NCBI RefSeq assembly: GCF_000372885.1
Contig: NZ_KB889967.1
Span: 3,299,430 to 3,363,429, forward strand
Length of the DNA stretch: 64,000 nt
Direction: 5' to 3'
From: Methyloversatilis thermotolerans
Lineage (GTDB): Bacteria > Pseudomonadota > Gammaproteobacteria > Burkholderiales > Rhodocyclaceae
The position numbers were made by a program, and so were the translations under genes. Positions 21,526 to 32,325 of the stretch are shown piece after piece (the stretch's first letter is position 1; each line of letters begins with the position of its first letter). The notes beneath the pieces are model-generated. The model saw nothing but the letters and a program-made list of their open reading frames with translations. It was not told the DNA's origin and did not search any database.

Positions 21526-22707
21526 TCAGGCCGGTGCACCCGACAACAGCCGTGCCGCGCAACGCGCCGCTACCCTGCCTTCGTCGGTCGGTACCACCCA
21601 GACTTCGATGCCGCTCGCCGGATCGTCGATGCGCATCATGGCGCTGCCGTTGGCCGCCTCGTTGCGCTGTGCATCGATGCGCACGCCCATCCACGAAAGT
21701 GCCGCGCACACATCGGTACGCAGCACGACGTCATGCTCGCCGATGCCACCGCTGAAGGCGATCGCGTCCAGCCCGCCGATGCAGGCGGCCATGGCGCCCG
21801 CATCGTGCACGATACGGTGGGTGAACAGCGCGATCGCCTCCCGCGCCTCGGGGCGGTCGGCCGCGCGCAGCGTGCGCATGTCGGCCGACAGGCCGGACAC
21901 GCCGAGCAGGCCGCTCTCCCGGTACAGCAGCGTCTGCAGCCGGTCGTGATCCCAGCCGCGCTGCATCAGATAGAGCAGCACGCCGGCATCCAGCGCGCCG
22001 CTGCGGGTGCCCATCATCAGGCCGTCGAGTGCGGAAAAACCCATCGTTGTGGCCTGGCTGCGGCCGTCGACGGCGGCGCACAGGCTGGCGCCATTGCCCA
22101 GATGGGCCATGAGCACGCGACCGCGGGCGCGCCGCGATGCGCCGAGCAGGCAGGACATGATGTATTCGTAGGAAAGGCCGTGAAAGCCGTAGCGGCGTAT
22201 GCCTTCGTCGTGCAGTGCGCGCGGCAGCGCGAAGCGGCTGGCGGTGTCGGATACCGTCGCATGGAAGGCGGTGTCGAAGCAGGCCACCTGCGGCGTATCC
22301 GGAAACGCGCTGCGGAAGGCGCGGATGCCGGCTACATTGTGCGGTTGATGCAGCGGTGCGAGCGCGTCCAGTGCCGACAGCGCGGTCAGCACTTCGTCGG
22401 TCACCACGACCGGTTCGCGGAAGCGGCTGCCGCCATGAACCACCCGGTGCGCCACCGCCTGCATGTCGCGCGGATGTCTGTCAGCGATCAGGCGGCGCAG
22501 CGCGTCCAGCGCCGCGCCATGCCCGCCGCCGGGCAAGGTCTGTTCGCCGCGCTCGCCGCCTTCGCGCCAGCGCATGAACGGTGCGCCGCCGGGTTCCAGA
22601 CCCTGGATGCTCCCGATCAGTGTCGCTGCGGCAATGTCGGCGCCCTGCAGCGGATGCAGCGAGAACTTGAGCGAAGAGGACCCGGCATTGACCGCGAGTA
22701 TGGCCAT
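21526..22707 (-). CDS. ackA: Acetate kinase
   Basis: A 393-residue member of the ASKHA superfamily. Motifs are the N-terminal ILAVNAGSSSLKFSL, the central AVAHRVVHGGSRF, HQPHNVAGI, FDTAFHATV, the phosphate site RRYGFHGLSYEYI, AHLGNGASLCA and the C-terminal FSGGIGEHDVVLR. It interconverts acetate plus ATP and acetyl phosphate. It lies two bases downstream of the phosphate acetyltransferase fusion gene, so together they form a complete acetate-acetyl-CoA pathway. Confidence 0.95.
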   Translation of the reverse strand: MAILAVNAGSSSLKFSLHPLQGADIAAATLIGSIQGLEPGGAPFMRWREGGERGEQTLPGGGHGAALDALRRLIADRHPRDMQAVAHRVVHGGSRFREPVVVTDEVLTALSALDALAPLHQPHNVAGIRAFRSAFPDTPQVACFDTAFHATVSDTASRFALPRALHDEGIRRYGFHGLSYEYIMSCLLGASRRARGRVLMAHLGNGASLCAAVDGRSQATTMGFSALDGLMMGTRSGALDAGVLLYLMQRGWDHDRLQTLLYRESGLLGVSGLSADMRTLRAADRPEAREAIALFTHRIVHDAGAMAACIGGLDAIAFSGGIGEHDVVLRTDVCAALSWMGVRIDAQRNEAANGSAMMRIDDPASGIEVWVVPTDEGRVAARCAARLLSGAPA

Positions 22708-22709
22708 GA

Positions 22710-24161
22710 TCAGTCAGTGATCGTGTTGCGCGCGCCGTTCCTGGCGCTCGCCACCAGCACGCCCAGCAGCGCCGAGGCCACCCGCGACATCGGGCCGTCG
22801 GCGCGACTGGTGAGCGCGATCGGTACGCGGGCGCCGAGCACCAGGCCGGATGCCGTTGCGCCGCCCAGGTACTCGAGCTGCTTGGCCAGCATATTGCCGC
22901 TCTCGAGGTCCGGCACCGCCAGGATATCGGCGTCACCCGCCACACGTGAGACGATCTGCTTGATCTGTGCGGCATGGGCCGATATCGCATTGTCGAAAGC
23001 CAGCGGGCCATCGAGCACGCCACCCCTGATCTGTCCACGGTCCGCCATCTTGCACAGGGCGGCGGCGTCCAGCGTGGAGGGCAGGTTGGGACTGACCGTT
23101 TCCACTGCCGACAGCAGGGCGACCTTGGGCTCGACGATGCCCAGGATGTGCGCGAAATCGATGGCGTTCTGCACGATATCCACCTTCTCCGCCAGCGTCG
23201 GCCGGATATTCAGCGCGGCATCGGTGATGAGCAGCGGCTTGCTGTAGGTCGGCACATCGAAGCGGAATACATGCGACATGCGCCGGCCGGTGCGCAGTGC
23301 CGGCCGGCCCAGCACCGCGTGCAGCAATTCGTCGGTATGCAGGCTGCCCTTCATCAGCATGCCGACATCGCCTGCAGCGGCCATGTCCGCCGCCATGTCC
23401 GCCGCCGCGTGACTGTGCGGCGCCGGAATCAGTTCGGCGTGTTCGAGCGTGAGACCGGCCTCTTCTGCCGCGCGTCGTATGCGTGCCTCAGGACCGATGA
23501 GCAGCGGCACGATGAGGCCGTGCCGCGCCGCATCCAGCGCGCCCTGCAGCGAACCTCCGTCGCACGGGTGGACCACCGCGCAGCGCACCGGCGCGATGCC
23601 CTGGCCGAGAGCCAGCAGTTCGCGAAAGCGTGCTTCCGGGTCGAACAGCTGGATGCGCGGCGCCCGCACATGTTCGATGCGCAGCTTGCGCACCGGGGCC
23701 AGTACCCGGGCGATGCCATGCAGCACCCGTTCGCCGCGCTGGTTCACCACCTGGCAATCAAGTTCCACCAGTTTCTTCGCTTCGTCCTTGCGCGTCACCG
23801 TGACACTGACCGCCAGGGTGTCGCCGATGCGCACCGGACGCGAGAAGTGCAGCACCTGTTCGACATAGATGGTGCCCGGACCGGGAAACCGGGTACCCAG
23901 CAGCGTGGAAATGAGGGCGCCGCTCCACATGCCGTGCGCGATCACGCCGTGGAAGGCGGTGTCTTCCGCGTACTCCGGGTTCATGTGCGCCGGATTGGTG
24001 TCGCCCGATACCGCCGCGAAGGCCTGGATGTCGGCGGGTGTCAGCGTGCGCAGCAGGCGGGCGCCCTGGCCCGGTTGCAGTTCGTCGAAGGTGACGTTCT
24101 CTATCCACTCCGGACGGGGTGTGTCGTGATCGGGGGGCGTCATCATCATGGCGGTATGCAT
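22710..24161 (-). CDS. Bifunctional MaoC-like enoyl-CoA hydratase / phosphate acetyltransferase
   Basis: A protein of about 483 residues with two domains. The N-terminal 150 residues form a MaoC hot-dog hydratase domain with the signature FAAVSGDTNPAHMNPEYAEDTAFHGVIAHGMW, in which Asp and His are catalytic. The rest is a PTA/PTB domain with SLHTDELLHAVL, RRMSHVFRFD, LLITDAALNIRPTLAEK and GPLAFDNAIS. It should transfer acetyl or butyryl between CoA and phosphate, feeding the acetate kinase encoded downstream; the hydratase substrate is unknown. The frame opens at 24200 inside fabI; the Met at 24161, preceded by GGAGA and just outside fabI, is chosen as start. This fusion is known in other proteobacteria. 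Confidence 0.88.
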   Translation of the reverse strand: MHTAMMMTPPDHDTPRPEWIENVTFDELQPGQGARLLRTLTPADIQAFAAVSGDTNPAHMNPEYAEDTAFHGVIAHGMWSGALISTLLGTRFPGPGTIYVEQVLHFSRPVRIGDTLAVSVTVTRKDEAKKLVELDCQVVNQRGERVLHGIARVLAPVRKLRIEHVRAPRIQLFDPEARFRELLALGQGIAPVRCAVVHPCDGGSLQGALDAARHGLIVPLLIGPEARIRRAAEEAGLTLEHAELIPAPHSHAAADMAADMAAAGDVGMLMKGSLHTDELLHAVLGRPALRTGRRMSHVFRFDVPTYSKPLLITDAALNIRPTLAEKVDIVQNAIDFAHILGIVEPKVALLSAVETVSPNLPSTLDAAALCKMADRGQIRGGVLDGPLAFDNAISAHAAQIKQIVSRVAGDADILAVPDLESGNMLAKQLEYLGGATASGLVLGARVPIALTSRADGPMSRVASALLGVLVASARNGARNTITD

Positions 24162-24168
24162 TTCTCCA

Positions 24169-24942
24169 TCAGTCGATGGCGTGATAGCCGGCGTCGACAT
24201 AGAGCGTCTGCCCGGTCATGCCGGAGGACGCGTCGGAACACAGGAAGGTGGTGAGCTGCGCGATTTCGTCCAGCGTGACCAGCCGGCCGAGCGGTGCCTT
24301 GCGCCGGGCGTCGTCGAGCAGGCGGTCGAAATGGGCGAGCCCGGAGGCGGCGCGCGTCGGGACGGGGCCGGGCGATACGGCGTGCACGCGTATCGCCTGC
24401 GGCCCCAGTTCCATCGCCATGTAGCGCACCATGGATTCGAGCGCCGCCTTCACCGGTCCCATCAGCCCGTAATCGGGTACCGCCTCGTCGGCGCCCAGGT
24501 AGGACATGGTGACCAGGCTGCCACCCGCCGGCATGTGGGGCAGGCACCGCCGCGCCAGACGCGCGAAGCTGTGGCAGGACACGTCCATCGCGTGTGTGAA
24601 GCCGGCACTGGAACTGTCGACCACGCGACCGTGCAGGTCCTCGAGAGGCGCCCATGCGATCGAGTGGATGACGAAGTCGATCTGGCCGAGATATTGCGCT
24701 GCGGCATCGACCAGAGCTGCCAGTTCGCCGTCGTTCTCGACGTTGCACGCGTGCAGCGGGCTGGCGATGCCGTCGGCCAGCGGCTGCACCCAGTTGCGCG
24801 CCTTGTCGCTGGCGCACGACAGCACGAGTTGCGCGCCCTGCGCGTGCGCCAGCCGCGCGCAGCCCCAGGCGATGCTGTGTTCGTTGGCCAGGCCGACGAT
24901 CAGCCCCTTCTTGCCCGTCAGCAAAGGGAGAATCTCGGCCAT
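24169..24942 (-). CDS. fabI: Enoyl-ACP reductase FabI
   Basis: A 257-residue divergent short-chain dehydrogenase. The NAD-binding region is KGLIVGLANEHSIAWGCARLAHAQGAQL, the catalytic motif Y-x6-K is in DYGLMGPVKAALESMVRYMA, and the SPGPVPTRAASGL and GMTGQTLYVDAGY segments match FabI. The family reduces trans-2-enoyl-ACP with NADH in fatty acid synthesis. Because it heads an operon with a MaoC-PTA fusion and ackA, this copy may be a specialised or second FabI linked to acyl-CoA/acetyl metabolism, which is inference. The start at 24942 matches the family N-terminus; the frame extends upstream without conservation. Confidence 0.9.
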   Translation of the reverse strand: MAEILPLLTGKKGLIVGLANEHSIAWGCARLAHAQGAQLVLSCASDKARNWVQPLADGIASPLHACNVENDGELAALVDAAAQYLGQIDFVIHSIAWAPLEDLHGRVVDSSSAGFTHAMDVSCHSFARLARRCLPHMPAGGSLVTMSYLGADEAVPDYGLMGPVKAALESMVRYMAMELGPQAIRVHAVSPGPVPTRAASGLAHFDRLLDDARRKAPLGRLVTLDEIAQLTTFLCSDASSGMTGQTLYVDAGYHAID

Positions 24943-25262
24943 GGACGTGTCTCGCTCGAAGTTGTTCGGAGTATGCACCTTAGCGCATCCCGGTTGCGCA
25001 ATTCTTGCTGCAGCGCAAACAAGGGTTTTCGCGGTGTTTCCTGCCGCCGGCCGGCGGAGCGCAGCCGCCCTGCATGCCGGCAAACCCCTCTCCGGTGCGG
25101 GTTTCCGGGGTTGCGGTGCACCATAAGTTGCGCCGCATTTATAAGCTTGCCGTAAGGTTTCCTGCCTAGCATCCGCCACGCTGCAGTCAAGGCGCCCGGC
25201 GCCGACGGTCCGCCCGTCGGCACGATGGACCGGGTCATCAATAAACACGGAGGAGGACATCC
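24943..25262. promoter_or_regulatory. 320-base divergent intergenic region between fabI and the symporter genes
   Basis: No gene is seen here. It must hold the divergent promoters of the fabI-MaoC/PTA-ackA operon and of the DUF4212-symporter operon. A short inverted repeat, TTGCGC at 24994-24999 and GCGCAA at 25013-25018, lies on the fabI side and could be an operator, but the arms are only six bases. Near the symporter gene an A/T-rich patch (GCATTTATAAGC, about 25135-25146) is the likeliest core-promoter area, though no -35/-10 pair with proper spacing stands out. GGAGGAGG at 25251-25257 is the ribosome site of the DUF4212 gene. Confidence 0.5.
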
Positions 25263-25517
25263 ATGGACGGTAAGAGCGCAGGCTACTGGAAAGCCACGCT
25301 TGGCCTGCTGACCAAGATCCTGATCATCTGGTTCGCAGTCTCTTTCGGTGCCGGCATCCTGTTTGCCGACGCACTGAACGGCATCCATCTGGGCGGCTAC
25401 CCGCTCGGTTTCTGGTTCGCGCAGCAGGGTTCGATCTACGTCTTCATCGCGCTGATCTTCTATTACGCGAAGAAGATGGGCGATATCGACCGCGAGTTCG
25501 ACGTACACGAGGACTGA
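25263..25517 (+). CDS. DUF4212 small subunit of a sodium:solute symporter
   Basis: An 84-residue protein with two predicted membrane helices (LGLLTKILIIWFAVSFGAGILF and GSIYVFIALIFYYAKKMG) and the DUF4212 pattern GYPLGFWFAQQGSIY, ending in an acidic tail. Such proteins always pair with VC_2705-type symporters, much as YjcH pairs with ActP. An excellent GGAGGAGG ribosome site precedes it. The symporter gene starts four bases after its stop. Confidence 0.9.
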   Translation: MDGKSAGYWKATLGLLTKILIIWFAVSFGAGILFADALNGIHLGGYPLGFWFAQQGSIYVFIALIFYYAKKMGDIDREFDVHED

Positions 25518-25521
25518 GCAC

Positions 25522-27330
25522 ATGGATCTGCAAACAACCATCTACATCGTGGTCGGTCTGAGCTTCGCGCTCTACATCGGCATCGCCATCTGGGCCCGTG
25601 CCGGGTCCACGGCGGAGTTCTACGCCGCAGGCGGCGGCGTGCATCCGGTCACCAACGGCATGGCGACGGCAGCCGACTGGATGTCGGCCGCGTCCATCAT
25701 TTCGATGGCGGGCCTGATTTCCAACATGGGTTACGGCGGCGGTCTGTTCCTGATGGGCTGGACCGGCGGCTATGTGCTGCTGGCCATGCTGCTCGCGCCC
25801 TACCTGCGCAAGTTCGGCAAGTTCACCGTGCCGCAGTTCATCGGCGACCGCTTCTACTCGAAGTCGGCCTCGACGGTGGCGGTGATCTGCCTGCTGACCG
25901 CGTCCATCACCTACATCATCGGCCAGATGACCGGCGTCGGCGTCGCGTTCTCGCGCTTCCTCGGCGTGTCCAGCGACACCGGCATCTATGTCGGCATGGC
26001 CATCGTGTTCGCGTACGCGGTGTTCGGCGGCATGAAGGGCATCACCTATACCCAGGTGGCGCAATACATCGTGCTCATCCTGGCCTACACCATCCCGGCC
26101 ATCTTCATTTCGCTGCAGCTCACCGGCAACCCGATTCCGCAACTGGGTCTGGGTTCCAACCTGGTCGGACAGGATCTGTCCCTGCTGGCGAAACTCGATC
26201 AGGTGGTGACCGATCTCGGCTTCGGCAAGTACACGACGACCACGGCGGGTTCCACGCTCAACATGTTCGTCTACACCATGTCGCTCATGATCGGTACCGC
26301 CGGTCTGCCGCACGTGATCATGCGTTTCTTCACCGTGCCCCGGGTGAAGGACGCGCGCTCGTCGGCGGGCTGGGCGCTGGTGTTCATCGCCATCCTCTAC
26401 ACCACCGCTCCGGCGGTGGCCGCGATGGCGAAGACCAATCTGATCCGTACGGTCACGCCCGGCGTCGTGATGAGCAATGCCGATCCTTATCAGGCCGGCT
26501 CGCAGATCGAGTACGAAAAGCGTCCGGACTGGATGAAGCGCTGGGAAGCCACCGGCCTGCTGAAGTTCGAGGACAAGAACGGTGACGGTCGTATCCAGTA
26601 CTACAACGACAAGAGCGAGGACGCGGCTTTCAAGACGAAGGCCGAAACGGCTGGCTGGAAGGGCAACGAGCTGACGGTGAACGCCGACATCATCGTGCTG
26701 GCCAACCCGGAAATCGCGCTGCTGCCGAACTGGGTGATCGCGCTGGTGGCGGCCGGCGGCCTGGCTGCCGCGCTGTCGACCGCGGCCGGTCTGCTGATGG
26801 CGATTTCCGCCGCCGTGTCGCACGATCTGATCAAGGGCGTGTTCAAGCCGGACATCAGCGAAAAGGGCGAACTGATGGCGGGCAAGATTTCGATGGCGGT
26901 GGCCATCGTGATCGCCGGCTGGCTGGGTCTGAACCCGCCGGGCTTCGCTGCGGGTACCGTCGCGCTGGCCTTCGGCATCGCCGCCTCCTCGCTGTTCCCC
27001 GCCATCATGATGGGCATCTTCTCGAAGAAGATGAACAAGGAGGGCGCCATCGCCGGCATGCTGGCAGGTCTCGCGGTCACGCTGTTCTACGTGTTCGCGC
27101 ACAAGGGCATCTTCTTCGTGAAGGGAACCGAGTACCTGGATCTGATCGGCGGCGCCAACAGCTTCTTCGGCATCACGCCGGAAGCGTTCGGTGCGGTCGG
27201 TGCCTTGTTCAACTTCATCGTCGCCTTCGTGGTCGACAAGGTGACCAAGGAACCGCCGGAGCACATCCAGCACATGGTTGAAGCCGTGCGTATCCCGCGC
27301 GGTGCCAAGGCGGTCGACGGCGCTCACTGA
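25522..27330 (+). CDS. Sodium:solute symporter, ActP-like (VC_2705 subfamily)
   Basis: A 602-residue membrane protein with about 13 helices of the SSS family: FYAAGGGVHPVTNGMATAADWMSAASIISMAGL at residues 33-65, GQMTGVGVAFSRFLG, AYAVFGGMKGITYTQVAQYIVL and GLPHVIMRFFTVP. Between helices, at about 311-395, there is a soluble insert containing DKNGDGRIQYYND (351-363), an EF-hand-like loop. The next helices, WVIALVAAGGLAAALSTAAGLLMAIS, are typical of acetate and monocarboxylate carriers. It probably imports acetate or another short-chain acid with sodium. Divergent acetate kinase/phosphotransacetylase genes support that. A double hairpin terminator follows. Confidence 0.9.
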   Translation: MDLQTTIYIVVGLSFALYIGIAIWARAGSTAEFYAAGGGVHPVTNGMATAADWMSAASIISMAGLISNMGYGGGLFLMGWTGGYVLLAMLLAPYLRKFGKFTVPQFIGDRFYSKSASTVAVICLLTASITYIIGQMTGVGVAFSRFLGVSSDTGIYVGMAIVFAYAVFGGMKGITYTQVAQYIVLILAYTIPAIFISLQLTGNPIPQLGLGSNLVGQDLSLLAKLDQVVTDLGFGKYTTTTAGSTLNMFVYTMSLMIGTAGLPHVIMRFFTVPRVKDARSSAGWALVFIAILYTTAPAVAAMAKTNLIRTVTPGVVMSNADPYQAGSQIEYEKRPDWMKRWEATGLLKFEDKNGDGRIQYYNDKSEDAAFKTKAETAGWKGNELTVNADIIVLANPEIALLPNWVIALVAAGGLAAALSTAAGLLMAISAAVSHDLIKGVFKPDISEKGELMAGKISMAVAIVIAGWLGLNPPGFAAGTVALAFGIAASSLFPAIMMGIFSKKMNKEGAIAGMLAGLAVTLFYVFAHKGIFFVKGTEYLDLIGGANSFFGITPEAFGAVGALFNFIVAFVVDKVTKEPPEHIQHMVEAVRIPRGAKAVDGAH

Positions 27331-27463: not shown

Positions 27464-27820
27464 ATGGTGTTCGATGTCAGCGTTGCATTGACCTGGATCC
27501 TGTTCCTCGCGCTGTTTCCGATGAGTTTCTTCTGGTTGCGTCGTGCCTGGCGCATCGCGGTCAAACGCGATTTTTCCGAGGTGGCCCTCAAAGCGGGTGA
27601 GCCGCCGGCGGATGCCGAGCGCTGGGCGCCCTATGAACTGGTGATCAATGCTCTGGCCGGTATCATCCTTGTGTTCGTGATAGGGGGTATCGTGACCGCA
27701 ACCTTGAATTACGAAACATGGTCGGCCATTGCCGGTTCGACCATCTGGTGCAAGCTGATGGCGAGTTTCGCGCTCGGCCGGCATGCGCATCTGAAGTCCC
27801 GCTCCGGCAAGACGGTGTGA
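27464..27820 (+). CDS. Small two-helix membrane protein of unknown function
   Basis: A 118-residue protein. Helix one is VALTWILFLALFPMSFFWL near the N-terminus, followed by RRAWRIAVKRDFSEVALKAGEPPADAERWAPYE, and helix two is LVINALAGIILVFVIGGIVTATL. The C-terminal 35 residues are soluble with basic residues. No family is recognised. AGGAG seven bases before the ATG supports the start. It lies between the symporter terminator and the CheY-like gene and may belong to the same functional module, which is only positional evidence. Confidence 0.65.
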   Translation: MVFDVSVALTWILFLALFPMSFFWLRRAWRIAVKRDFSEVALKAGEPPADAERWAPYELVINALAGIILVFVIGGIVTATLNYETWSAIAGSTIWCKLMASFALGRHAHLKSRSGKTV

Positions 27821-27904
27821 ACAAGCGCTGGCGGGCTGATCCATGACAAGGTGGCGCGATGCTTCACGCGCCAGACTGAACGATCAGTCGGCGGAGGACG
27901 GGAC

Positions 27905-28276
27905 ATGGCATGCAGCATGCTGATTGCCGATGGCGAGCCCACGATAAGACAGGCGCTGGACCATCTGATGACGCGCGAAGGCTATTCGGTCAGCGTCGCC
28001 GAGGATGCGTCACATCTTGACGCAACGCTGGAGCGGGTGCATCCCGATGTGCTCTTGCTCGATGCAGCCTTGCCCGGGCGTTCCGGTTATGAAATATGCC
28101 AGGAAATCCGGCGTCGCGCCGATGCGCGGCCGGTCCGCATCGTGCTTCTGTCGTGCTCGACGCGGCATGACGACGCCATGCGCGGACGCGCACTCGGGGC
28201 CGACGCGGTGCTGGCCAAACCGTTCACCGCGCGCGAGCTGCTGCGGACGGTGCAATCCCTGACCGCTGGACAGTGA
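27905..28276 (+). CDS. Single-domain CheY-like response regulator
   Basis: A 123-residue receiver domain without output domain. The phosphoacceptor Asp is in LLLDAALPGRSG, the switch Ser in LLSCST and the Lys in VLAKPFTARELL. The acidic pocket reads IADGEPTIR, so one of the two usual acidic residues is Gly; Asp and Glu flank it. GGAGG seven bases upstream supports the ATG. The stop codon overlaps the GTG start of the kinase-exonuclease gene (GTGA at 28273-28276), so the two proteins are coupled and presumably act together. Confidence 0.85.
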   Translation: MACSMLIADGEPTIRQALDHLMTREGYSVSVAEDASHLDATLERVHPDVLLLDAALPGRSGYEICQEIRRRADARPVRIVLLSCSTRHDDAMRGRALGADAVLAKPFTARELLRTVQSLTAGQ

Positions 28277-30465
28277 CGGTGAGCCGCAGCCGTCGCCCCG
28301 ACCGGCGGTTCTGGTTCGCTCTGGCGGCGCTCATCGGTCTGCTGCTGGCCTGGGGCACCCTCAGTGCGGCGCTGCTGTTGTCCACCCTCGACGCAGCCCA
28401 GCGTGCGCAACTGTCGACCCTGTTCGAAGGCCGGTGGCCCCTGCCGCTGGTGGCGCTGCTGTGCGTGCTGCTGCCGGCCGCCTACGGACTCATGCTTCTC
28501 TACCGGCGCCTGATCGGCGATTTCGCCTGCCTTGCCGACGAGGCGGGCATCCTGCTCGATACCGACACCGAACGCATGCTGCCGGAGCGAGGCAGCGACG
28601 AACTGCGTGCGCTGGTGCGAAGGATCAATGGCTTTGTCCGGCAACGCCGCGACTTGCGTGCCGATATCGCGGCGCGGATAGAGGCGAGCAGCCGTTCGCT
28701 CGAGCGCGAACGCAGCCGGCTGGCCGCGCTCATGTCGGAGCTGAGCCAGGCCATCGTGGTGTGCAATATGGATGGCCGCATCCTGCTGTACAACAACCGC
28801 GCCCGGCTGCAGTTCCGCACCCTGTCCGACACACCCCTGCTGGCCGATGGCGCCGAGCTGCTCGGGCTCGGCCGATCGATCTACGCGGTGTTCGACCGGC
28901 AGTTGGTGGTGCACGCGCTGGATTCCCTTGCTCACCGGCTGCAGCGCGGTGCCGCCAGTCCGCTTGCGCAGTTCGTCACCACCACGCGCAGTGGCCAGTT
29001 GCTGCGTGTGCAGGTGGCACCGGTAAGAGAGGCGGACGAGGGCGCGTGCACCGATTCTGCGCTGGGCGGTTTCGTGCTCATGCTGGACAACATCACGCGC
29101 GCCTTCGAGGACGAAACCGCGCGTGACCGCATGCTGCTGACCTTGACCGACGGCAGCCGCGGATCGCTGGCCAGCATGCAGATGGCGATAGACATGCTCG
29201 ACTGCCCGGATCTGGATGAGCCTACGCGCATGCGGTTCCAGACAGTGATCCGGGACGAGGTGGGCGCGATGACGGCGCGCGTGAAGGAACTGGCGGAGTA
29301 CGCGGCGCGCGGCATGAAGACCCGCTGGCCGCTGGAGGACATGCTGGGTTCCGATCTGGTCAATGCAGCCGTGCGCCGGATAGGTGCGCTTCCCGGCATG
29401 CGTGTGCTGGCTGACGAGGTCGCGGCCGAGGTATGGCTGCGCGTGGACAGCTATTCCCTGCTGCAGGCGCTGGCCTATCTGGCGGCTCGCCTGAACGACG
29501 AATATGACATCCGGGCGCTGCAGATCAGGCTGGAGGCGTCGCCGCAGGACGACCGCGCGCATCTCGATCTGATCTGGCAGGGTCAGACCATGAGCACCGA
29601 AACCATCATGGGCTGGCAGATGGATGCGATGAACGCCGGCGACGAGCGGTCCACGCTATCCGTGCGCGAGGTGGTGGAACGGCACGGCGGCGAGTTCTGG
29701 CTGGAGCGCGAACGCGTGCGCCATCGCGCATTCTTCCGCTTCCGCCTGCCGCGGCTGAAGGCCTGCGATGTCACCGACAGCGAAACCTGCATGCGCGCCG
29801 AAGGGCGACCGGAATTCTACGATTTCGACCTGTTCGCGCTCAGTGAATCCGGGCGGGCACTGGTGGACAGACCGCTGTCCGAACTGGCGTATACCGTGTT
29901 CGATACCGAAACCACCGGGCTCGATCCTTCGGCGGGCGACGAAATCATCCAGATCGGTGCGGTGCGCATCCTGAACCGGCGACTGCTCCGGCAGGAAAGT
30001 TTCGAACAGCTGATAGACCCCGGTCGTCCGATTCCCGCGGCGTCGATACCGATACATGGCATCACGCAGGACAGGGTGAGCGGACAGCCGGCGATCGATG
30101 CCGTGCTGCCCGCCTTCCATGCCTACGCCCGCGACACCGTGCTGGTCGCGCACAACGCCGCCTTTGACATGCGCTTCCTGCAGTTGAAGGAAGCACGTAC
30201 CGGTGTGTGTTTCGATCAGCCGGTACTCGATACCTTGCTGCTGTCGGCCCTGGTCCATCCCGGACTGCCGTCGCACCGGCTGGATGCGATCGCCGAGCGT
30301 TTCGGCGTCGTCATCACCGCGCGCCACACCGCTCTGGGCGACGCCCTGGTCACCGCGGAAGTGCTGCTCAAGCTGCTGCCGCTGCTTGCCGGCATGGGCA
30401 TACACACGCTGGGTGAGGCGATGGATGCCTCCCAGAAAACCTATTTCGCCCGCCTCAAGTACTGA
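28273..30465 (+). CDS. Membrane sensor fused to DnaQ-type 3'-5' exonuclease (degenerate histidine kinase plus DEDDh domain)
   Basis: A 730-residue fusion. Two membrane helices (about 13-37 and 57-78) are followed by a HAMP-like region and coiled coil (78-150) and a PAS-like domain (152-275, with ELSQAIVVCNMDGRILLYNNRA). A histidine-kinase-like core follows at about 280-495. The H-box is degenerate: where SHELRTPL is expected it reads DGSRGSLA (293-300), with no His. The N-box lacks Asn (LLQALAYLAARL), and only the G2-like ERHGGEFWLE survives. The C-terminal 538-710 is a complete exonuclease: Asp544 and Glu546 in FDTETTGL, Asp632 in HNAAFDMRF, His685 and Asp690 in RHTALGD. The kinase part is probably a sensor or ATP-free scaffold, and nuclease activity is predicted. 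Start is GTG. The pairing of such a nuclease with ActP-like symporters and CBS-DUF294 genes is known in pseudomonads, as separate genes. Confidence 0.88.
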   Translation: MTVSRSRRPDRRFWFALAALIGLLLAWGTLSAALLLSTLDAAQRAQLSTLFEGRWPLPLVALLCVLLPAAYGLMLLYRRLIGDFACLADEAGILLDTDTERMLPERGSDELRALVRRINGFVRQRRDLRADIAARIEASSRSLERERSRLAALMSELSQAIVVCNMDGRILLYNNRARLQFRTLSDTPLLADGAELLGLGRSIYAVFDRQLVVHALDSLAHRLQRGAASPLAQFVTTTRSGQLLRVQVAPVREADEGACTDSALGGFVLMLDNITRAFEDETARDRMLLTLTDGSRGSLASMQMAIDMLDCPDLDEPTRMRFQTVIRDEVGAMTARVKELAEYAARGMKTRWPLEDMLGSDLVNAAVRRIGALPGMRVLADEVAAEVWLRVDSYSLLQALAYLAARLNDEYDIRALQIRLEASPQDDRAHLDLIWQGQTMSTETIMGWQMDAMNAGDERSTLSVREVVERHGGEFWLERERVRHRAFFRFRLPRLKACDVTDSETCMRAEGRPEFYDFDLFALSESGRALVDRPLSELAYTVFDTETTGLDPSAGDEIIQIGAVRILNRRLLRQESFEQLIDPGRPIPAASIPIHGITQDRVSGQPAIDAVLPAFHAYARDTVLVAHNAAFDMRFLQLKEARTGVCFDQPVLDTLLLSALVHPGLPSHRLDAIAERFGVVITARHTALGDALVTAEVLLKLLPLLAGMGIHTLGEAMDASQKTYFARLKY

Positions 30466-30489: not shown

Positions 30490-32325
30490 TCAGCGACGCA
30501 GTCCCTGGTAGCGCTGGCCGAGCACGCTCTGCAGCGTCTGCACCACCGAGAATGCATCCTTGAGCTGGCTGCGTTCGAAATTCGACAGTTCGTCCGGCGA
30601 CACATGGTTGTCGGCGCCCACGCCCTGTGCGATCTGGCGCGCCTGGTGCCGGATGCGCAGCGTGGCGATGAATTCGAGTGCATCGCTCAGGTCGCGTGCG
30701 CTCTGCGCGCTGATTTCGCCACTGTCCGCCGCGATGGCCAGGCGGTCGTGGGTGTTCACGGCCTCATGCCCGCCTGCCAGCGCATACACGCGTGCCAGAT
30801 CGACCACCGGCACGATGCCGCCATGCTTCAGGTCCAGCGTACCCTTGTGCTCGCCGCTGCGCTGCACCGACAGCGAACGGAACAGGCCCAGTGGCGGCGT
30901 GTGGGTGAGCGCATTGCCCACCATGTGAGCCAGGAACAGGCGGTTGCCGCGTGTCCGTGCGAGCACCTCGGCGCGCAGCGCATCCAGCAGCTCGCTGCGT
31001 CCCCCGATCGCGCGCAGATCGAAGAACACGCAGGTGAGCATGAGCGCCTTGGGTTCGGGCTGGGCGGTCCAGCGGTCGAAGTAGTTCAGCCATCGAGTGC
31101 GTGGCTGTCGCCACTGGTCGGTCATGGCCATCATGTCGCCCGGGCAATGGACATAGCCGCAGGCATCCAGGCCGTCGCACACCCAGGTGGCGAACTGCCG
31201 GAAGTACTCGCCATGCCTTGCCTCGTCATAGGCATCGTCGAGCACCAGGCAGTTGTCCTGGTCCGACTTGGCGGTCTGTTCGCTGCGTGCCTGCGACCCG
31301 GCCGCGACCCACACGTAGTCGACCGGCGGCGCGCCGAAGCGTGCTTCGGCGAGCTGCAGCAGGCGGCGCGTGATCGCGTCGGTAATCGCGGTGATGATGT
31401 GGCCGGTGCTGTAGGCCGAAGCACCGGCTGCGGCCAGCGCCTGCTGCAGGCTGCGCACGCGCGACGCCGCTTCGATCAGACCGGCGACGTCCTGCTGGCG
31501 ATAGATGTCGCCGGCCAGATAGACTGCCGACGTACTGTGCTGCGGACTCAGGTCGGTCGCGCTGACCATGCCCGCCACGGTCGAGCCATCCATGAGGGGC
31601 ACGTGATGGATGTTGTGGCGCGCCATCAGCAGCAGTGCTTCGAAAGCCGGTTTGCGCAGGTCCATGGTGATGGGGGCGGTGCTTGCGACGTCGATCACCG
31701 GACGCCCGGTGTCCACACCCTGGGCGATGACGCGGCTGCGCAGGTCGCGGTCGGTCACCACGCCCACCAGTTGTCCGTCCTTCACGAGCAGTGCGGATGA
31801 CACACGATGTTCCGCCATCAGCCGTGCGGCATCGCGCACGGGCGTGCCGGGCGCAACCGTTACCGGTGCTCTGCGCGCGAGCGCGCGTACCGGCGTGGTC
31901 ATCAGGTTGAGCAAGGGGTCGTTGCCGCGGGGGGGCGGCCCTGAACCCCGCAGCGTGAGGAAGGCCTGCAATACCGGCTGGCTGGCGCATGCTGCGTCGA
32001 TGTCGGCAGCCCCGATACGGGCCAGCGTTGCGCGGTCCGCCCTGACCGACCAGGGGTCGGGTACGGTGGCCGGCGTGCCGTGGCCGAACAGATCGCCCGG
32101 CCCCAGCTTCGCAGTACACGCCTGTTCCGTGTGAACGAGCGAAATGCGGCCGTCGATCACCATGTAGAGGGCCTCGCCGTCTATCGTCGCATCACCGTCG
32201 AGGACGACGATCTGTGTCCCGTCCAGCAGCGCCTCGCGCGCCGCGGGATCGAGCTGCGAGAACACGCGCTGGGCCGCCAGCGCACGTCTGAGTACACGTT
32301 TGTCTGCGCCATCGTCCATCGGCAT
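30490..32325 (-). CDS. cNMP-like / CBS pair / DUF294 nucleotidyltransferase protein
   Basis: A 611-residue soluble regulator. Residues 15-125 resemble a cyclic-nucleotide-binding fold, but the phosphate cassette (FGHGTPATVPDPWSVRADRA) lacks the usual Glu and Arg-Ala, so cNMP binding is doubtful. Two CBS domains follow at about 150-260 (VSSALLVKDGQLVGVVTDRDLRSR and IHHVPLMDGSTVAGMVSATDL). The DUF294 nucleotidyltransferase domain has GSQARSEQTAKSDQDN (343-358), the G-S...D-x-D motif shared with GlnD. The C-terminal DUF294_C helical domain has GNALTHTPPLGLFR. CBS pairs bind adenosine nucleotides. It converges on the kinase-exonuclease gene. A second ATG at 32319 is possible. Confidence 0.88.
   Translation of the reverse strand: MPMDDGADKRVLRRALAAQRVFSQLDPAAREALLDGTQIVVLDGDATIDGEALYMVIDGRISLVHTEQACTAKLGPGDLFGHGTPATVPDPWSVRADRATLARIGAADIDAACASQPVLQAFLTLRGSGPPPRGNDPLLNLMTTPVRALARRAPVTVAPGTPVRDAARLMAEHRVSSALLVKDGQLVGVVTDRDLRSRVIAQGVDTGRPVIDVASTAPITMDLRKPAFEALLLMARHNIHHVPLMDGSTVAGMVSATDLSPQHSTSAVYLAGDIYRQQDVAGLIEAASRVRSLQQALAAAGASAYSTGHIITAITDAITRRLLQLAEARFGAPPVDYVWVAAGSQARSEQTAKSDQDNCLVLDDAYDEARHGEYFRQFATWVCDGLDACGYVHCPGDMMAMTDQWRQPRTRWLNYFDRWTAQPEPKALMLTCVFFDLRAIGGRSELLDALRAEVLARTRGNRLFLAHMVGNALTHTPPLGLFRSLSVQRSGEHKGTLDLKHGGIVPVVDLARVYALAGGHEAVNTHDRLAIAADSGEISAQSARDLSDALEFIATLRIRHQARQIAQGVGADNHVSPDELSNFERSQLKDAFSVVQTLQSVLGQRYQGLRR

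Follow-up and report, generated by a model that had tools for sequence, protein, structure and literature searches.

A histidine pseudokinase fused to a DEDDh exonuclease and paired with a CheY-like receiver in gene clusters with SLC5/STAC-type kinases

The window analysed here, a 64,000-nucleotide stretch of the Methyloversatilis thermotolerans genome (contig NZ_KB889967.1, positions 3,299,430 to 3,363,429), carries at positions 28273..30465 of its forward strand a single open reading frame (ORF) with a GTG start and 730 amino acids (aa), the length given by an earlier sequence-only reading, in which the remnant of a sensor histidine kinase is followed by a DEDDh 3'-5' exonuclease. A gene for a CheY-like receiver overlaps its start, and in many relatives the pair is accompanied by a kinase of the SLC5/STAC type. 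We propose that proteins of this family are membrane-tethered exonucleases gated by the receiver through a dead paralogue of the SLC5/STAC-type kinase, and that in the window itself the input is probably broken, a reading that we consider about evenly balanced between right and wrong.

The core of the fusion is a histidine kinase fold, comprising the two DHp helices and the CA domain, without the kinase motifs, that is, a pseudokinase. Neither HisKA nor HATPase_c was found in the fusion in a Pfam scan (E 0.1), and the kinase ancestry emerged from an hhalign comparison (99.1%, E 6.3e-19) with the profile of the kinases that adjoin the fusion in relatives, as well as from profile matches to solved kinases (best E 2.3e-10). 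Foldseek searches with the fusion model returned sensor kinases, in long whole-chain superpositions with high root-mean-square deviation. In the hhalign equivalences, the H-box His corresponds to Asp293, the N-box Asn to Arg406 and the G1 Asp to Trp435, in agreement with the losses read from the sequence alone, and no residues are aligned to the G2 GLGL stretch. The absence of the H-box His extends to the homologues: among the 97 that were aligned (L106, L130, L147 and L151, with open frames below 440 aa, were left out; here and below, L and G numbers denote loci and genomes of the comparison), this position is occupied by Glu in 47, Asp in 21, other residues in 15 and gaps in 14, with His in none of the 83 aligned residues. 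Position 406 is Arg in 53 of the 97 and never Asn, and 86 retain Trp435. A His at position 289, four residues ahead of the H-box position, was rejected as an alternative conserved phospho-acceptor, being present in only 19 of the 97 rows; the window has Leu289. Most of 30 sequences compared retain the register I-R-A-x-x-E after the lost His in the first pseudo-DHp helix (besides the 97 rows, alignment A2 comprised 57 fusions, and A3 and A5 comprised 30). Judged by its motifs, with the H-box His, N, G1 and G2 all missing, the fusion is not expected to be an active sensor histidine kinase.

The AlphaFold2 model of the fusion (predicted local distance difference test 86.5, predicted template modelling score 0.62; alignment of 57 sequences) shows, in this order, two N-terminal helices, long linker helices, a PAS-like fold, DHp-like helices (residues 275-309 and 316-350), a CA-like domain and the exonuclease, all encoded on the forward strand. 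The N-terminal segment with a short loop between its helices (residues 11-78; 28303..28506) had been read as two transmembrane helices; helices are indeed modelled at residues 11-38 and 56-96, their membrane placement being a prediction from sequence. The linker helices (residues 79-156; 28507..28740) gave only a weak HAMP match, below the Pfam cut-off (E 0.08, residues 98-122), which leaves the HAMP domain claimed earlier not established. The claimed PAS domain fared better, with a PAS-like fold in the model at residues 157-273 (28741..29091) and a PAS_4 match, also below the Pfam cut-off. Model, hhalign and homologue alignment jointly delimit the pseudo-DHp helices (residues 275-350; 29095..29322), with Asp293 in place of the H-box His, and the pseudo-ATPase, CA-like domain (residues 355-494; 29335..29754), with Trp435 at the G1 Asp position and the G2 stretch missing. 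Among the 97 homologues, 79 share Cys164 (28762-28764), which lies at the start of the PAS-like domain and is a possible redox or ligand site.

The exonuclease domain (residues 539-707; 29887..30393) is complete in its catalytic residues. RNase_T (PF00929) was matched at residues 542-698 with E 8.4e-37 (127.7 bits against a cut-off of 24), and all five DEDDh residues (D544, E546, D632, H685 and D690) lie where they had first been placed. The closest sequences and folds are those of DnaQ epsilon, PolC and DinG-type domains: in sequence, the T. maritima PolC exonuclease (2p1j) comes nearest among solved chains, and for the C-terminal part Foldseek returned PolC, DinG and epsilon exonucleases in alignments of ~160-190 columns. 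Unlike these domains, which are joined to a polymerase or helicase, that of the fusion is joined to a signalling core. The DEDDh set is complete in all 95 homologues that span the nuclease, the remaining 2 of the 97 ending early in the alignment, a count biased by the seeding of the 80 genome loci on two nuclease motifs. With a profile of PAS and pseudokinase alone, free of the nuclease, the first nuclease motif was present in 20 of the 23 matches fetched, the window's own excluded.

The family represented by L209-L211 keeps the pseudokinase (best domain E 2.7e-76 or lower), and its exonuclease motifs are absent, with no RNase_T match in L209 or L211, the two that were scanned. By inspection its receiver is divergent, without the acidic pair, and the 50 fold matches listed for the L209 model, whose alignment included fusion sequences, are kinases, phytochromes and other sensors. 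These neighbourhoods (L209 2461-13999, L210 144-6229, L211 3509-8246) are SOS-mutagenesis-like, with the degenerate receiver and the pseudokinase with its motif-less exonuclease part accompanied by lexA (L209), an IMS (ImuB-like) gene and an ImuA-like ORF upstream (L209 and L211) and a DnaE-type polymerase downstream (L209 and L210, the latter locus beginning near a contig end); we take these genes to be ImuA, ImuB and DnaE2.

Full-length homologues of the fusion were found in 21 of the 41 genomes searched, own genome counted, and further ones in records labelled with several phyla, which bears out the expectation that the fusion would persist elsewhere; an assembly artefact was rejected, as the same architecture recurs in many genomes. 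The profile of PAS and pseudokinase matched 21 of 369 genomes of the class, a lower bound because at most five candidates per genome were scored. Names given to such proteins in annotated records include 'DNA polymerase III subunit epsilon' and 'exonuclease domain-containing protein', and searches of one open-access library, from which most subscription journals are absent, turned up no account of a kinase-exonuclease fusion.

The regulator beside the fusion is a lone receiver domain of 123 aa (27905..28276, forward strand), not a LuxR-type protein, and its stop and the GTG start of the fusion share the bases GTGA, the four-base overlap recognized at first sight. Its start is most likely the in-frame ATG at 27905, judging from the alignment with relatives, and not the ORF start at 27851. 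The coupling of the two genes recurs in relatives: among 100 fusion loci, 20 from relatives of the window and 80 from named genomes (the fusion relatives being the best 80 of 334) and not independent of one another, a receiver is directly adjacent in 61, a DUF294 gene is present in 77, a symporter in 49, an SLC5-kinase in 44 and acetyl-CoA synthetase in 27, and at least one of these partner genes occurs in 55 of the 60 loci with at least 6 kb on both sides. The fullest cluster consists of the symporter, the SLC5-kinase, the CheY-like receiver, the fusion and the DUF294 nucleotidyltransferase. In Paracoccus denitrificans PD1222, the row reads DUF294 (PDEN_RS25395), a small ORF, SLC5-kinase (RS25405), intact receiver (RS25410) and fusion (RS25415); the kinase is 67% identical to that of L036, with its H-box intact, and the fusion is 50% identical to that of the window, with Glu at the H-box position.

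The neighbouring kinase appears to be of the SLC5/STAC type, as its N-terminal half matches the CbrA SLC5-STAC structure 10ed (residues 47-665, E 1.3e-76), described as CbrXA SLC5-STAC (PMC13022988). A Pfam scan (E 0.1) and the 25 NCBIfam rows listed gave only kinase domains and no SLC5 part, and comparison with symporter profiles yielded a weak partial match (hhalign 85%, E 5.8e-6); DivL (4q20) is among the solved chains matching this kinase (E 3.2e-32). The pseudokinase in turn is close to it: against the profile of the pseudo-DHp and CA-like domains, 44 SLC5-kinases from fusion loci scored 30.4-66.4 bits and other kinases, taken from the loci of the best kinase matches, at most 17.6 bits (24 reported of 28). 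In all, the ranking reported 69 of 75 proteins, the SLC5-kinase ORFs being represented by 45 of 47, one of which scored -0.2, and the other kinases by 24 of 28. On its simplest reading, the pseudokinase looks like a duplicated copy of the cluster's kinase that then lost its chemistry; the SLC5-kinases scored came from fusion loci, and the ancestor may therefore be the SLC5-kinase family at large. In the window genome, we found no full-length match to the SLC5-kinase; there were 51 matches to the kinase query, and those listed, including the best, cover the kinase domain only.

Loss of this kinase provides a natural comparison, in which erosion of the receiver accompanies absence of the kinase within the window's genus. 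Receivers were scored in 64 loci and the window; in 36 loci, some of them short contigs, no receiver was in range. The acceptor set D-D-D-T/S-K is intact in all 43 receivers with an SLC5-kinase in the locus, and among the 22 receivers without an SLC5-kinase scored above 300 bits in the locus, 4 are degenerate, 12 have changed DD to ED and 6 are intact. The degenerate ones are those of the window, L043, L044 and L055 (the last with an uncertain alignment), and the four genomes concerned (G000, G006, G011 and G018) contain no full-length SLC5-kinase match. In the window, one of the two metal-binding acids is changed from Asp to Gly (DG for DD), a degeneracy that the sequence-only reading lacked, and the phospho-Asp, Ser and Lys positions are kept. 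Kinase-bearing species of the genus are 87% identical in both receiver and fusion (21 pairs); across the kinase loss, identity is 53% for the receiver and 75% for the fusion (21 pairs). Ratios of non-synonymous to synonymous change (dN/dS) are 0-0.19 for the receiver in kinase-bearing pairs (computed for 7 of the 21). In L043/L044, a pair without the kinase, they are 0.84 for the receiver, from about 17 changes only, and 0.13 for the fusion; between the window and a kinase-bearing relative, with synonymous change near saturation, they are 0.58 for the receiver and 0.33 for the fusion. In the fusion tree, the window stands apart from L014/L015 (the fusions of L043/L044), with supports of 60-65, which modestly suggests two losses of the SLC5-kinase in the genus. 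Erosion of the receiver upon kinase loss, with the fusion conserved, makes the SLC5-kinase the likely partner of the receiver, and conservation of the fusion indicates that the nuclease chain is still under selection without that input.

The closest precedent for such an arrangement is DivL of Caulobacter, which is described as a kinase homologue that is itself inactive as a kinase and serves as a sensor by binding phosphorylated DivK (PMC4211667). Both systems pair a PAS-containing histidine kinase homologue, devoid of the phospho-acceptor His, with a single-domain CheY-like regulator, and the fusion family has just such a dead kinase core and partner gene, with the receiver degenerate in the window. 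Unlike in DivL, the His has given way to Glu or Asp, not Tyr, the ATP-site motifs have been lost too, and the output is an exonuclease. The output of DivL is the control of CckA. The clusters also recall the SLC5/STAC two-component systems CbrA (PMC13022988), CrbS/CrbR, equivalent to MxtR/ErdR (PMC5715377, PMC9927547), and RpuS/R (PMC9100948), of which the CrbS/R or MxtR/ErdR regulon is described as including acetate genes, a symporter and a CBS/nucleotidyltransferase gene (PMC5715377, PMC9927547). Unlike these systems, the fusion clusters employ a lone receiver, CrbR and RpuR being LuxR-type, and the kinase, present in 44 of the 100 fusion loci, has no full-length match in the window genome. 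What seems new here, by analogy, is that DivL-like logic would end in a nuclease, within SLC5/STAC clusters.

The mechanism that we infer, from signal and docking to gating, catalysis and substrate, would run as follows. The SLC5/STAC-type kinase would sense a short-chain carboxylate signal and phosphorylate the CheY-like receiver, which would dock on the pseudo-DHp bundle, as DivK~P does on DivL; the resulting change would pass to the C-terminal DEDDh domain and set how actively it processes its substrate, a nucleic acid or a nucleotide, within short-chain-acid metabolism, the exonuclease possibly acting in step with the DUF294 nucleotidyltransferase. As the window genome contains no full-length match to the SLC5-kinase, phospho-gating is probably not running there; with the receiver eroding, the fusion would be regulated by its own PAS and membrane part only, or be ungated.

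Several observations weigh against receiver gating by the cluster's kinase. Intact (6) or DD-to-ED (12) receivers make up 18 of the 22 without a kinase in the locus, and in G017 the receiver is intact even though no full-length kinase match was found, so that other kinases may serve and the rule is not strict; some of the 22 kinase-less loci also end early, L141 holds a cut-off kinase, and in G013 (L051) the kinase is on another contig. Pairwise dN/dS rests on few changes, 5 of the 60 well-flanked loci lack any partner gene, and in the L209-L211 family, which retained the pseudokinase and lost the nuclease residues, a non-catalytic role exists. The earlier suggestion that the receiver is phosphorylated by another kinase or by acetyl phosphate, and so gates the nuclease, has to be modified for many relatives, where the SLC5/STAC-type kinase of the same cluster is the likely partner; for the window genome itself we consider it very unlikely. 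Acetate kinase and phosphate acetyltransferase genes next door, the kept phospho-Asp, Ser and Lys positions and the 51 kinase-query matches are in keeping with it, but one metal-binding acid is Gly and the receiver has the higher dN/dS of the two proteins. Equally little credence is given to a scaffold, in which the nuclease fold would serve mainly for binding and could do without catalysis: L209-L211 would be examples, yet the DEDDh set is complete in every homologue spanning it, and the first motif recurs in most matches of the nuclease-free profile. It is rather doubtful that the fusion works alone, its PAS or membrane part sensing a ligand or redox state and setting the nuclease, with the receiver as a bystander or phosphate sink. 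The fusion is conserved where the receiver decays or was not found (L054/G004), no receiver match was obtained in L102, L120 and L122, and Cys164 is largely kept; against this stand the adjacency of the receiver in most fusion loci and the resemblance of the pseudokinase to the kinase of the same clusters.

The remaining alternative concerns the DUF294 protein and leads to a stand-alone nuclease of pseudomonads, which the sequence-only reading had named as a counterpart of the fusion. According to PMC9927547, P. putida pp_0353 shares an operon, controlled by MxtR/ErdR, with the CBS-domain gene pp_0354; its product belongs to the RNase_T family, and the gene is needed for normal growth on pyruvate but not on 20 mM acetate. 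The authors of that paper speculate on mRNA decay and call its role unclear. As in the fusion clusters, an exonuclease gene adjoins a CBS-domain gene, in the case of pp_0353 within an acetate/pyruvate regulon (PMC9927547); unlike the fusion, PP_0353-like relatives have no membrane, PAS or pseudokinase parts. Searching with a homologue from a window relative, which we take from its context to be PP_0353-like, we found stand-alone exonucleases beside DUF294 in all 15 loci (L219-L233), a pairing independent of the fusion. Fourteen of these sequences (L233 and pp_0353 itself were outside the tree) form a separate clade with support 1.0, and the fusion nucleases do not separate from DnaQ-like domains (support 0.21). 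A derivation of the fusion from the pseudomonad-type gene is accordingly not supported: the nuclease is not simply that gene joined to a sensor. Mutual exclusion of the two genes was likewise not supported, the fusion and the stand-alone gene occurring in 21 and 12 of 369 genomes with an overlap of 1 (G343) against 0.7 expected; in the set of 41 genomes, the stand-alone gene was found in 3, none with a full fusion, too few to count.

Two nuclease lineages thus keep the same partner, which is the basis for a writer/eraser pair, in which DUF294 would add nucleotides to a protein or RNA 3' end, the exonuclease would remove them and the pseudokinase would place the eraser at the membrane. This idea, compatible with receiver gating, we hold to be rather unlikely. 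A nucleotidyltransferase-type acid pattern is present in 81 of the 85 DUF294 ORFs of fusion loci, and DUF294 accompanies the large majority of fusions; it was not seen, however, in 23 of the 100 loci, or in 14 of the 60 flanked by 6 kb at either end, and we know of no DEDDh enzyme that removes nucleotides from protein. In PMC9927547, moreover, the pp_0353 and pp_0354 mutants of P. putida differ, the latter having no pyruvate phenotype, which also counts against receiver gating as proposed here. The broadest formulation is a widespread two-component branch with nucleic-acid chemistry, and not transcription, as its output: a transporter-kinase would phosphorylate a lone receiver, a dead paralogue of that kinase with its own 3'-5' exonuclease would read it, and this eraser would oppose a GlnD-like nucleotidyltransferase that writes a nucleotide mark in carbon metabolism. 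In our view this is distinctly unlikely.

If the receiver gates the exonuclease as proposed, the family suggests that the copy of a kinase can give up its chemistry, retain the surface on which a receiver docks and acquire a nuclease, so that two-component signalling acts directly on nucleic acids, and the fusion may couple a nutrient signal to nucleic-acid trimming. With the kinase lost naturally in some genomes, the wiring can be probed comparatively, and a laboratory strain, P. denitrificans PD1222, carries all the genes of the set. The findings may also bear on why an exonuclease gene sits in the acetate/pyruvate regulon of P. putida (PMC9927547).

The symporter genes of the window are co-directional with those for a small membrane protein, the receiver and the fusion: a DUF4212 protein recognized by Pfam (25263..25517) precedes an SSS/SLC5 symporter of the VC_2705 family (25522..27330; TIGR03648, E 3.1e-246), followed by a membrane protein of 118 aa conserved in several relatives (27464..27820, its start set by comparison with them). 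Divergent to these on the reverse strand is an acetate-metabolism block (21526-25260), composed of acetate/propionate kinase (ackA family, 21526..22707), MaoC-phosphate acetyltransferase (PRK08190, 22710..24200) and a FabI enoyl-ACP reductase ORF (24169..25260; domain at residues 112-362, the true start probably inside), which, with the cluster content in relatives, substantiates the suspected link of the fusion to acetate genes. A CBS-DUF294-DUF294_C nucleotidyltransferase gene, identified by Pfam (30490..32325, reverse strand), is convergent with the fusion. A scan for sigma-70-like promoters found none, against 1.3 in shuffles.

Fusions in delta-proteobacterial records (L102, L120 and L122) lie beside other genes, with no receiver, DUF294 or symporter match in these loci; that of L102 adjoins purC (SAICAR synthetase) and selB by Pfam, and the ORF starts in L120 and L122 are similar by eye. 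Two tandem DUF294 genes, one short (~350 aa) and one long, occur in L048 (11159-14216) and also in L049, L117 and L146; in L048, CBS domains are missing from the short one, and the long one contains both CBS and cNMP domains. Finally, the gene for CbrX, the small partner of CbrA, is located upstream of CbrA (PMC13022988). Possible counterparts are a small ORF ahead of the SLC5-kinase in P. denitrificans (L234 5249-5494) and, ahead of it in the window's genus, the small membrane protein found at 27464-27820 of the window.

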